This document shows, piece by piece, positions 7,226 through 14,232 of a DNA stretch of 34,172 nt; position 1 is the first letter of the stretch, and each line of letters starts with the position of its first letter. The DNA is from Aquificaceae bacterium (GTDB lineage: Bacteria > Aquificota > Aquificia > Aquificales > Aquificaceae): positions 1-34,172 of the forward strand of contig JANXBA010000039.1 of the NCBI GenBank assembly GCA_025062075.1, written 5' to 3'. Under the pieces are notes generated by a model. That model did not search any database. It was given only the letters and a program-made list of their open reading frames with translations, and was not told where the DNA came from. A program made the translations under genes and the position numbers.

Positions 7226-9108
7226 GTGCTGTCGCTTATGGTTTCCCTTTTGCTAACCCTTAACCTGCTCTGGGCAGTGCAGGGTCTTCTCATAAGGGAG
7301 GAGACCACCAGGCAGGAAAATCCACCTCAAAGACCAAGAGTTCAGGAAACCTCCAAGAAGAGCCACTCCAAGCAGAAGGACAGTTCACACAAGCGGACGC
7401 TCCAAACACCAGCACTACAAGCCAGCAGAGTTTCCAGCTACACGTTCAAAGAGCTTAACTTCTTAGGGGACGACTTAGTCCTCAGAGGGACTGCGCCAGC
7501 TTACGACCTTTACATACCCGTCTACTCCCACCTGGAAGGTCTGAAGCTCACTCTGAAGATAAGCACGCCAGAGTACTTGAGAGAAGACTCCACTCTGCTC
7601 CTGCTGGTGGACGATGTGCCCTATCAGAGCTTCAAGGTAGCGGGGGGCCAAGGAGGGAGTTGGTCTTGGTGCTCAGGCCTCAGGGAAACCGACCCTTTAT
7701 AAAGGTCTCCATAAGAGGTAGTCTCAGAACTTCCAACAACCTGTGTGAAGATGCCTTCAGCGACAGGATATACATGGTCCTTTCAAAGAACAGCTCGGTG
7801 GAGTTCTACTACAGACCGCCATCGCGGATAGAGCAGTTTATCCGAGACTACGACCTTCGCTTCTGCCTACAGGATGCCAGTTTGATACCTCTTGCCTACC
7901 TTCTGTCCTCTCAGAACCCTCTGCCTGCCTTCTTCAGCTGGGGCGAAGAGAGAGACTGCAAAAACCTAAAGGTAGCTCAACAAACCTACCTGCAGGGTAA
8001 CACTCTCTTCCTGTCGGAGGGCACCCTGAAGGCCATAGCGCAGGGATACACGCCTCTTATCTTTGGTAGGAGCGTAGTCCCCGACAAGGTGGTGGGGGAC
8101 AGTTATAAGACCTCCAAACAAGTTAGCCTGAAAGAGCTCGGCATGGGTAATACAACCGTCAAAGGCATGTCCAACCTGTCCGTATACATCCCTCTTGACC
8201 TGGCCAAGATAGGGGGTATGCCAGACACGCTTTACTTCAGGCTCAAGTTTGAACACACGCCTCCCCACCAGAAGGACAAGATGGAGCTGAGAGTTTACCT
8301 AAACGACGACCTTATCCGCTCTCTTCCTCTTGAAGGTGCTGGGCGCAAGGAGGTGGACATAAAAATACCTACTCACTACCTGAGCTACGGCGTAAACGGT
8401 CTGCTGGTGAACTTGGTAAACTTCACCTCTTCTGACAACTGCTTTGGTGCAGTTACCCAGTCAGTCTTGACAGTTTATCAGGACTCCTACTTTTACTGGA
8501 ACAGTTTGATGGTCAGGCCCCACAACATAGCGGACTTTCTAAGGATAATCAACGGTAAGCTCACGGTAGTCTTAAAAGAGCAAGGCCTATACCCCTTTGC
8601 TCTGGAGTTTGTCAACGAGCTCGCTCTCATAAATCGCAACGTGAAGGAGGTAAGGGTGCTTACCGCGGAGCCTGAGTCTGACAGGGGGGACTTTATGATA
8701 GTCTTTGAAAAGCCACAGCAGGGGCTCTTTCAGGTGTACAACCCCCTCACGCAAGAGGTGCTCTTTTCCGCAAGATACGAGCTTCCCTTCGTAGCCATGA
8801 CCTTGGGAGAAAGGAAGGGCACGCCCGTGCTTAGCGTGTATTCCTACGGCACGGCTGACCTTGAGGCCATAGGTAAAAAGTATTCCTCTCAGGACTACCT
8901 GAGGCTTTTAGGGAATGTGGCCATCCTTTCAGAGGAATACGCCACTGCCTTTGAGGTAGGCAAAAAACTCAGAATCAGATACGAAGGAGAAAGGGGCATT
9001 GGCTACTACTGGAACATTGTAAGACCTTGGGCGGTGCTCCTGTTAGGTTTGCTTGGGTTTAGTTTTCTGATTTACGTGTACAGGAAGCTCACGAGGAGAC
9101 CATCATGA
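7226..9108 (+). pseudogene. BcsB-like (cellulose synthase subunit B type) periplasmic protein, frameshifted near 7642-7647 (ORFs 7226-7702 and 7660-9108)
   Basis: ORF1 has a signal/TM and a basic linker, then FKELNFLGDDLVLRGTAPAYDLYIPVYSHLEGLKLTLKIS...LLLLVDDVPYQSFKVAGG. ORF2 continues in another frame (RRELVLVLRPQGNRPFIKVSIRGSL) to a C-terminal TM anchor (RPWAVLLLGLLGFSFLIYVYRKL). Domain order matches BcsB-family proteins. Adding one G to the G6 run restores a continuous frame. Confidence 0.6.
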
Positions 9109-9887
9109 GAAAATACATACTTCTTCTGCTGGCTACCGTCAGCGTAGGGCAGGCTTCCGCCTTTGTAAAGAGCGAGGGGGAGCTTTTCCTTTCGCCCTCC
9201 TTCTACTACTACAGGGCCAGCAAGTTTTACGACAGAGAAGGCAACAGAAGAGACATAGGCTGTAAGTTCACAAAAAGAGAAGTCCAGCTCTACGGAGAAT
9301 ACGGGCTCACGGAGAAAACGACCCTTACCTTCAAGCTCCCCTACGCTCAGTTGGAGTGCGGTGCGGACCGCACCTCTAGACTGGGAGACCTAGAGGTGGG
9401 CTTCGTGAGAAACCTCAGAAGAGACAAGAGCTCCTCTCTGTCCACCTACGGCACTCTCTTGGTGCCCACCGGCTACTCAATACAGGACAACCTCAGGCTA
9501 GGCTACGGTAGGCTGGGGGCGGAGGGTGGACTGCTCTACGGGCTGTCTGGGAAAGGGGGCTTTTTTGACTCAGGCTTAGGCTACAGGTACTACTTTGGAT
9601 ACCCTTCCAGCCATGTCAGGGGCTACCTTTCTGGAGCTTACAGTCTAGCTTCTAACCTACAGCTCTACAGCATGTTAGACGCCCAGATAGGGTTGGGAGA
9701 CGGCAAAACCAAAAGGGTGGGGAGGAATCTGGTGCTGGAGCCCGACTACAAACTCCTACAGGCGTACGTGGGACCTCGCCTGATTCTGGGAAGTGCCTCT
9801 GTTTTGGTAGGCTATCAGCGAGTCCTGTGGGGAAGAAAGACGGGCGACGGCTCGGGATTTTTCATGAGCCTCTGGTATGGTTTCTAA
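9105..9887 (+). CDS. Predicted small outer-membrane beta-barrel protein
   Basis: Signal peptide MRKYILLLLATVSVGQASAF; alternating aromatic/hydrophobic beta-strand pattern throughout; C-terminal aromatic residue (FFMSLWYGF) typical of barrel proteins. Four-bp overlap with the upstream BcsB-like gene. Confidence 0.6.
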   Translation: MRKYILLLLATVSVGQASAFVKSEGELFLSPSFYYYRASKFYDREGNRRDIGCKFTKREVQLYGEYGLTEKTTLTFKLPYAQLECGADRTSRLGDLEVGFVRNLRRDKSSSLSTYGTLLVPTGYSIQDNLRLGYGRLGAEGGLLYGLSGKGGFFDSGLGYRYYFGYPSSHVRGYLSGAYSLASNLQLYSMLDAQIGLGDGKTKRVGRNLVLEPDYKLLQAYVGPRLILGSASVLVGYQRVLWGRKTGDGSGFFMSLWYGF

Positions 9888-13187: not shown

Positions 13188-14232
13188 GAGAGCTCTTTTG
13201 CAGTCTTTTCTGGGCCTTGGTGCGGTGCTGTCAGGTTGTGGTGGAAGTGGTAGGTCTTTAGCCTCAGGCAGGGGGGAGATTAAGTTTGGGCTCGGGGACG
13301 ACCCGGAGAAGCTGGCAAACCGCTACGACCCCGCAGGAGGGCAGATTCTGGACCTGCTCGAGCCAGACATTCTATGCTTTTGGCTCAACGGGGGAGTTGA
13401 CCCCAACGGGCAGGTGCACGGTGAGAGTATGCTCCACATAAGGCAGTGGGCTCAAAAGGGCAGGTTTGCCCAATGGAGCGACCGAGGCTACGAGCTCATG
13501 CTCGTAACCTGGGAAAACTACGACGGACAAAACCCCCAGCTGGGGGGTGCGACCTTGGGAAACTATCACATATCTCCTGCCTTTATACAGGACCTGGCGG
13601 AGATAGTGCAAATACTCAAATCCCAGTTCAGGAACCGGGTGTATGTGGCTCTTGCCACGGAGCAGTCCACCTACACCGCCTGCAGGACCAATCCCGCATG
13701 TAAGCATGGTCCACCCTACTCAGACCACATAAACTCACTTACGGTAAACTACTTTACCGACCTGCGGGGCAACCTACTTCAGGCGGTGCGTCTTCTGGAG
13801 AGGAGCGGTCTGGACCTTCACTACGGTCCGTCTTTTGGGGGCTGGCTCGTGGAGTTCGAAGAAGGCCTGAGTTTCATAGAGTTTTTTGAGCCCGTGATAA
13901 GGGCTTCTAACGCCCTCTTTTTCCAGAGTATGATGGAGAAGAAGGCTTCTGAGACGGGCGGTTACGGAAACCCCCAACGCATACTGAAAAACTGCCAATT
14001 TTTCAGCAAGTACGGTAAGCCCCTGCACCTTGCCCACTACATGCCGGTAAACCACAGGGCGGACGTGGTGGCAGAGGACGCCAGGGCCATGTCAGAGGAA
14101 GGCTATCTAAGAGAGCTCTACAGGCTAGGGCTCAGGAGCTTTTCCTTCATGTACTACGGCCTTCTCAAGGATAACGCTTACGGTGCCTTGGAGGCTATGA
14201 GCTCTTTTAGGAAAAAGCTTCGCAGAATTTGA
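13174..14232 (+). CDS. Tat-exported lipoprotein, candidate glycoside hydrolase-like protein
   Basis: N-terminus MTLSRRALLQSFLGLGAVLSGCGGSG has a twin-arginine motif plus lipobox (LSGC). The mature part has TIM-barrel-hydrolase-like patterns (YELMLVTWENYDG; VYVALATEQSTY; LDLHYGPSFGGWL). Position downstream of a polysaccharide synthase supports the role. Family not identified. Confidence 0.45.
   Translation: MTLSRRALLQSFLGLGAVLSGCGGSGRSLASGRGEIKFGLGDDPEKLANRYDPAGGQILDLLEPDILCFWLNGGVDPNGQVHGESMLHIRQWAQKGRFAQWSDRGYELMLVTWENYDGQNPQLGGATLGNYHISPAFIQDLAEIVQILKSQFRNRVYVALATEQSTYTACRTNPACKHGPPYSDHINSLTVNYFTDLRGNLLQAVRLLERSGLDLHYGPSFGGWLVEFEEGLSFIEFFEPVIRASNALFFQSMMEKKASETGGYGNPQRILKNCQFFSKYGKPLHLAHYMPVNHRADVVAEDARAMSEEGYLRELYRLGLRSFSFMYYGLLKDNAYGALEAMSSFRKKLRRI

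Follow-up and report, generated by a model that had tools for sequence, protein, structure and literature searches.

What does a compact gene cluster on contig JANXBA010000039.1 of an Aquificaceae bacterium (assembly GCA_025062075.1; 34,172 nt, referred to throughout as the window) make, and does it represent an exopolysaccharide system peculiar to thermophiles? A first-pass annotation, prepared from the sequence alone, described an operon at positions 7226-14232 of the + strand, encoding a BcsB-like protein, a small outer-membrane barrel, a family 2 glycosyltransferase (GT2), a GT-C-like membrane protein and a lipoprotein, and suggested that it may be a distinct synthase-dependent system for a thermophile biofilm polymer. 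The notion of a distinct system was not borne out, since orthologous operons are present in Bacteroidota, Chloroflexota, Bacillota, Proteobacteria, Synergistota and others, and two named versions already exist, namely xagABCD of Xanthomonas and the sfz1-6/sfb cluster of stalk-forming iron oxidisers (PMC3609779, PMC3528676, PMC8250860, PMC4643136). The operon is instead a variant, carried by Aquificaceae, of the xag/sfz group of exopolysaccharide systems, earlier versions of which have been described piecemeal.

Organisation and conservation of the operon

The operon and the adjoining manC gene comprise the following features, with positions given in the window (ORF, open reading frame; aa, amino acids; c-di-GMP, cyclic di-GMP; Tat, twin-arginine translocation):

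7226..7702, + strand: N-terminal piece of the BcsB-like protein, frame 2, ended by a frameshift (ORF of 158 aa; 68% identity to a section of the uninterrupted BcsB, 629 aa, in genome G009)
7660..9108, + strand: main piece of the BcsB-like protein, frame 1, with a C-terminal transmembrane anchor (482 aa; PF03170 E = 5.1e-8; 85% identity to G009; one hydrophobic segment, residues 453-471)
9105..9887, + strand: 12-strand outer-membrane beta-barrel, XagA homologue (AlphaFold2, Foldseek, hhalign)
9877..11751, + strand: polymer synthase, N-terminal MshEN plus membrane GT2, XagB/Sfz2 orthologue (Pfam, motifs)
9907..10059, + strand: MshE-type c-di-GMP motif, synthase residues 11-61 (NF053729 57.2 bits, cut-off 38)
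11748..13187, + strand: polytopic GT-C-like membrane protein, Sfz3/XagC counterpart (8 hydrophobic segments, profile matches)
13174..14232, + strand: Tat-type lipoprotein with a TIM-barrel, GH-A-like fold, in the XagD/Sfz4 position (twin-Arg, lipobox, AlphaFold2, Foldseek)
14251..15630, + strand: ManC, mannose-1-phosphate guanylyltransferase/mannose-6-phosphate isomerase (TIGR01479 386.8 bits, cut-off 372.95)

The barrel, GT2, GT-C-like and lipoprotein genes are all open on the + strand (260, 624, 479 and 352 aa, respectively), and the overlaps of 4, 11, 4 and 14 bp between successive cistrons are exact in the ORF listing. The initial description of five overlapping cistrons therefore stands with one correction, namely that the BcsB-like region (7226-9108) is split over two frames. 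Pfam and NCBIfam scans of the operon proteins detected no PilZ, TPR or GH8 domain, which agrees with the proposed compact synthase-dependent exopolysaccharide operon with MshEN instead of PilZ, a small barrel instead of BcsC and no GH8 hydrolase. The BcsB-like and barrel assignments were likewise upheld, by a PF03170 match and by a 12-strand model with channel matches in Foldseek.

Conservation of the operon exceeds chance, the genes being syntenic and 85-92% identical in G009, and syntenic in other genera even where identity falls to 32-41%. Co-occurrence of the five-gene set in related Aquificaceae, the lack of which had been named as grounds for abandoning the original proposal, was evident as synteny in several genera: the order bcsB-barrel-GT2-GT-C is found in genomes G009, G007, G036, G022, G027, G034 and G019, and the lipoprotein gene is next in G009, G007, G036 and G022. 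Judged by the names attached to homologues, members of the set are present in Hydrogenobacter thermophilus, Thermocrinis albus, Hydrogenobaculum and Pampinifervens, and the GT2s of Aquificota form one clade. No usable information was found in the literature on Aquificaceae streamers and exopolysaccharide. Three genomes of a further genus (g3; G024, G031 and G015) have a variant locus (L043 5398-11057) in which the genes that follow barrel and GT2, next to flagellar genes, encode a 436-aa protein and a TPR protein; homologues of BcsB and GT-C were not found in this variant, the 436-aa neighbour having been examined.

Relationship to the xag and sfz systems

The operon shares with xagABCD, represented here by the X. 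cucurbitae locus L081, the order barrel, MshEN-GT2, polytopic membrane protein and hydrolase lipoprotein (PMC3609779, PMC3528676), L081 having been taken as xag from gene order and content as opposed to an accession match. XagB of Xanthomonas is 47% identical to the window GT2, and the Aquificaceae barrel is homologous to the Xanthomonas XagA candidate (hhalign, E=3.9e-16). Unlike the Aquificaceae operon, xag has no BcsB of its own, and XagD is a GH113 protein whereas the Aquificaceae lipoprotein belongs to another TIM-barrel family. In X. oryzae pv. oryzicola, an rpfG mutant loses its excess biofilm when xagA or xagB is deleted (PMC3609779); such a requirement for the gene products is known for Xanthomonas xag only.

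The twisted-stalk cluster sfz1-6/sfb1-4 of Mariprofundus and Ferriphaselus has the order BcsB, MshEN-GT2, GT-C, hydrolase and barrel (PMC8250860, PMC4643136), and Kato et al. had already tied the stalk cluster to xagBCD (PMC4643136). The M. ferrooxydans PV-1 locus (L090) was found directly with the window GT2, profiles match each shared part, and its order and sizes fit the published sfz1-6 twisted-stalk candidate cluster (PMC8250860). Profile matches of 92 and 85 bits make the GT-C protein a homologue of Sfz3 from Mariprofundus, and Sfz5 matches the barrel profile with 28-30 bits. The stalk cluster differs in that the barrel Sfz5 comes after the hydrolase, that Sfz4 is a GH113 protein (M. micogutta copy, PV-1) and that an extra SH3/CotH protein, Sfz6, is present. 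Sfz4 and Sfz5 carry the published labels 'family 10' and 'unknown', respectively (PMC8250860); the comparison made here re-assigns Sfz4 to GH113 and identifies Sfz5 as the likely outer-membrane exit of the stalk system.

The Aquificaceae operon thus has an N-terminal MshEN-GT2 orthologue, a barrel of the XagA/Sfz5 type, a polytopic protein of the XagC/Sfz3 type and a BcsB-like protein (Sfz1), whereas the accessory GH113 hydrolase (XagD/Sfz4) is missing, position and TIM-barrel fold alone being in agreement. Since the lipoprotein is not GH113, the operon is regarded as a variant and not as a plain member of the xag/sfz group. NfrBA-YbcH of E. coli also has a GT2-MshEN fusion, with c-di-GMP binding shown for NfrB, and a secreted polymer (PMC8669469), but the MshEN domain of NfrB is C-terminal as opposed to N-terminal in the window synthase, NfrA is a large TPR protein as opposed to a 260-aa barrel without TPR, and Nfr has no GT-C gene.

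Distribution across phyla

Scanning of the genome collection revealed 594 encoded relatives of the GT2, the best 80 of which have 41-62% identity and represent at least 10 phyla. Profiles made from Aquificaceae and Geobacillus proteins, with which wider profiles agree, place BcsB and GT-C next to the GT2 across phyla, joined in diderms by the barrel, the usual order being BcsB-(barrel)-GT2-GT-C; Actinomycetota loci have GT2 and GT-C only. The divergence of GT2, BcsB and GT-C is correlated (Mantel r 0.87-0.91), as expected of genes inherited as a unit, although shared ancestry alone also raises r. The gene set can also travel, since a Geobacillus stearothermophilus plasmid typed as conjugative (L031, CP128455.1) carries a monoderm version, manC-bcsB-GT2-GT39. 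An operon of Eremiobacterota (L073 5867-13029) encodes a GH130 protein, GT-C, barrel, GT2, a response regulator and a mannose-1-phosphate guanylyltransferase.

Synthase, barrel, GT-C protein and lipoprotein

Three GT2 Pfam families match the synthase (best 2.6e-21), and the processive-GT2 motifs DAED, TED and QRSRW are all present, with near-complete conservation across 34 orthologues. At the N-terminus, the MshEN Pfam match (1.1e-4) falls just short of the Pfam cut-off, while NCBIfam NF053729 is matched well above its own. The c-di-GMP motif of MshEN, as defined previously (PMC5013675), consists of two motifs of 24 residues each, in which Arg, Leu, Gly and Gln are conserved; 11 of its 14 key positions are identical or conservatively kept in the window protein, the exceptions being Arg9 to Thr, Leu54 to Phe and Gln61 to Leu, and the last motif position is mostly His in other Aquificaceae. 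Among the 34 GT2 orthologues, 26 match the motif. Elsewhere in the genome there are three GGDEF matches and one PilZ, which makes c-di-GMP signalling plausible, and the operon is probably under c-di-GMP control, as judged from these sequence features. In alphaproteobacterial versions (L092 12277-13329; L113 12379-13347), the GT-C gene is separated from the barrel gene by one for a response regulator with a weak GGDEF domain, which is a possible local source of c-di-GMP.

The AlphaFold2 model of the barrel has 12 strands (pLDDT 89.3, pTM 0.84), and its closest structures in Foldseek are the COG4313 channel 4rl8 (template modelling (TM) score 0.76) and the amyloid exporter FapF (TM 0.69). With a barrel profile built from Aquificaceae proteins only, a barrel was found beside the synthase at 18 of 43 diderm loci and none of 35 monoderm loci (Fisher 4e-6), or by lineage in 8/11 diderms and 0/3 monoderms, where the rows are non-independent and envelope class was assigned by us from record titles. 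The same kind of search found no adjacent barrel at 16 Mucilaginibacter loci; not every diderm version therefore keeps one, and the absence of a barrel is no proof of a monoderm envelope.

Orthologues of the GT-C-like protein from Geobacillus and Paenibacillus match PMT_2 weakly, and XagC was reached only through an iterated GT-C profile (58 bits). The lipoprotein is modelled as a TIM barrel (AlphaFold2, pLDDT 88.9), for which the top Foldseek matches are glycosidases of clan GH-A, mannanases of families GH26 and GH113 among them. Across 32 members of the lipoprotein family two glutamates are invariant, Glu163 where strand 4 ends (the place of the GH-A acid/base) and Glu114 following strand 3. 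The family occurs almost exclusively in Aquificota, apart from a few members in other groups such as Anaerolineae (an organism is named for a minority of members). Searching the PDB by sequence with the lipoprotein gave no match, and assignment to GH114, based on one weak match in P0041 (E=0.002, residues 69-115), was judged too thin.

Proposed mechanism

The operon quite likely specifies an exopolysaccharide machine of the xag/sfz kind, synthase-dependent and responsive to c-di-GMP. From gene content, synteny, homologies, folds and motifs, and by analogy with the established biology of BcsA/BcsB and NfrB, we infer its enzyme activity, direction of transport, response to c-di-GMP and product as follows. 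The XagB/Sfz2-like GT2 would polymerise an activated sugar at the cytoplasmic face of the inner membrane, probably threading the chain through its own membrane domain, and binding of c-di-GMP to the N-terminal MshEN would be expected to switch the synthase on. The BcsB-like protein would take up the chain in the periplasm, where the GT-C protein would most likely draw on a lipid-linked donor to add side-chain sugars, and the exit would be the 12-strand XagA-like barrel. The TIM-barrel lipoprotein may trim or release the chain, with GDP-mannose presumably supplied by co-transcribed ManC.

Several observations count against this scheme. The window MshEN motif, predicted to bind c-di-GMP, is without Arg9 and Gln61, and the motif is lost altogether in Bacteroidota orthologues. 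Direct profile comparison of XagC with the GT-C protein was not significant. Similarity of the lipoprotein to GH-A enzymes is at the level of fold only (Foldseek TM ~0.45-0.5, ~10% identity); assignment to GH113 was rejected, there being no PF22612 match in the 32 members and no hhalign match; and there is no Glu at the end of strand 7, the usual strand of the GH-A nucleophile, such that its mechanism may differ from that of GH-A. Finally, bcsB is broken in this genome.

Identity of the polymer

The best clue to the product, which the first-pass annotation had passed over, is manC, which starts 18 bp past the lipoprotein gene and scores above the equivalog cut-off. It adjoins the operon or its remnant in G009, G007 and G006, overlapping the lipoprotein gene in G007, and ManC flanks the synthase in Aquificota, Synergistota, Bacilli, Clostridia and on the Geobacillus plasmid. 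All ten of the flanking nucleotidyltransferases tested from the last four sources scored best as mannose-1-phosphate guanylyltransferases, the cut-off being passed by two from Synergistota only, and the Eremiobacterota operon has a different subtype of this enzyme together with GH130. Genes for GH113 enzymes are neighbours of the synthase gene in Xanthomonas, Mariprofundus and four Alphaproteobacteria. In vitro, two GH113 enzymes from Xanthomonas act as endo-beta-1,4-mannanases (PMC9032380), and these are probably XagD, since the single GH113 of X. cucurbitae is located at the xag locus. The beta-1,4-mannanase ManA of X. campestris has been implicated in biofilm dispersal and is regulated oppositely to xag, and the authors of that work asked what ManA cuts and which polymer Xag makes (PMC3528676). 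Because co-transcribed ManC makes GDP-mannose, a mannose-based chain seems the most likely product, and on balance a beta-(gluco)mannan or other mannose-based polymer is slightly favoured.

Conversely, the same Xag/Sfz-type machine could make a non-mannan polymer from a UDP-sugar (glucose, N-acetylglucosamine or N-acetylmannosamine), with ManC a passenger serving other pathways. This would accord with the NCBIfam matches of the GT2, which are to the UDP-sugar enzymes CelA and PgaC, albeit with low scores far under their cut-offs, and with E. coli NfrB, also an MshEN-GT2 protein, which is thought to use UDP-N-acetylmannosamine (PMC8669469). Moreover, manC does not adjoin the operon in several Aquificaceae genera (G027, G034, G019 and G022) and is missing from the majority of loci in Bacteroidota, Chloroflexota and Actinomycetota, so mannose cannot be taken as proven for every member. 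However, GH113, GH130 and mannose-1-phosphate guanylyltransferases of two subtypes turn up repeatedly next to the synthase in different phyla, and no other nucleotide-sugar synthase scored better for the ten neighbours tested, on which grounds a non-mannan product is considered a serious candidate that is nonetheless unlikely.

Interruption of bcsB and decay of the operon

Alignment with the DNA of the closest relative, G009, indicates that the window is short of one base near 7653/7654, whereas bcsB is a single continuous ORF of 579-681 aa in seven Aquificaceae relatives. The PF03170 match covers part of the second frame only (E=5e-8). A second database contig of 9.8 kb encodes a 100%-identical protein (P0106) called from the same internal start, so that the frameshift is probably no product of random assembly error, with the caveat that both contigs may share reads. 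Positions 7640-7670 of the window contain, adjoining the frameshift, a G6 run and a Shine-Dalgarno-like AAGGAGG stretch just upstream of the TTG start of the second frame. No such stretch is present near this position in G009. Expression of BcsB in two pieces is conceivable from this arrangement. An additional BcsB-like match in the genome (C61) was taken as spurious, as it sits at a c-type-cytochrome-like ORF with CxxCH motifs.

With bcsB frameshifted, the machine may be off or impaired in this genome, and it could even be a decaying relic that makes nothing in this organism, which would be compatible with the xag/sfz-type machine operating in relatives. Decay of the operon is indeed common among the Aquificaceae examined: the GT2 of G022 (Thermocrinis albus by homologue name) is split, with the MshEN and catalytic ORFs in different frames (L042 8037-9969), G006 is missing the bcsB and lipoprotein genes and has a transposase-like ORF upstream, and only C-terminal scraps remain in G008, beside manC. 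Nevertheless, every other ORF of the operon is open, motifs are intact and identity to G009 is 85-92%, and two-piece expression or a reversible mutation is conceivable; a relic is therefore judged rather improbable.

Other explanations

A still weaker case can be made that the operon is not a polymer synthase, and that GT2 and GT-C make a lipid-linked sugar for proteins or lipids, with BcsB and the barrel in some other role. The usual targets of GT-C enzymes (PMT_2 relatives) are proteins or lipids, an additional GT2, in some cases with a GtrA/DPMS membrane domain, is present at several Bacillota loci, and, as noted above, Actinomycetota loci are reduced to the glycosyltransferase pair. The processive QxxRW motif and the partnership with BcsB, the polysaccharide hydrolases within operons and the reduced biofilm of Xanthomonas xagA and xagB deletion strains (PMC3609779) are at odds with this explanation, rendering it decidedly improbable. 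A divergent cellulose system was rejected as most improbable, since, despite the PF03170 match and a BcsB-like subunit and overall division of labour in common with BcsABCZ, there is no PilZ domain on the synthase, no BcsC and no GH8 BcsZ, and the CelA model scores 46 bits against a cut-off of 699.

Implications

Two literatures, on the Xanthomonas xag biofilm polymer and on the twisted stalks of iron bacteria, appear to describe pieces of one machine, for which the cross-phylum comparison yields a single testable answer, a mannose-based chain made from GDP-mannose. If correct, the mannose reading would answer the published question on the Xag polymer (PMC3528676). Points that are new here are the joining of scattered versions, the diderm-only barrel, the mannose hypothesis and the presence on XagB-type synthases of MshEN, a putative receptor that would let c-di-GMP control the enzyme directly. 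Because twisted stalks are used as putative traces of iron oxidation by ancient microbes (PMC8250860), the chemistry of the stalk polymer matters beyond microbiology. It is proposed tentatively, and with some doubt, that one pan-bacterial, c-di-GMP-switched beta-mannan machine lies behind Xag biofilm, iron-bacterium twisted stalks and the surface growth of Aquificaceae, and that the Aquificaceae/Anaerolineae lipoprotein represents a new mannan-processing glycoside hydrolase family.

Neighbouring genes

Downstream on the same strand (window 18742-20972) are a gene of the UDP-glucose/GDP-mannose dehydrogenase family and a gene of the NAD-dependent epimerase/GDP-mannose dehydratase family. Further along (31341-34133 and 28992-30704), the window encodes a molybdopterin oxidoreductase with iron-sulfur and DmsC-type anchor subunits, with moeA nearby, corresponding to a dimethyl sulfoxide reductase-like respiratory complex.

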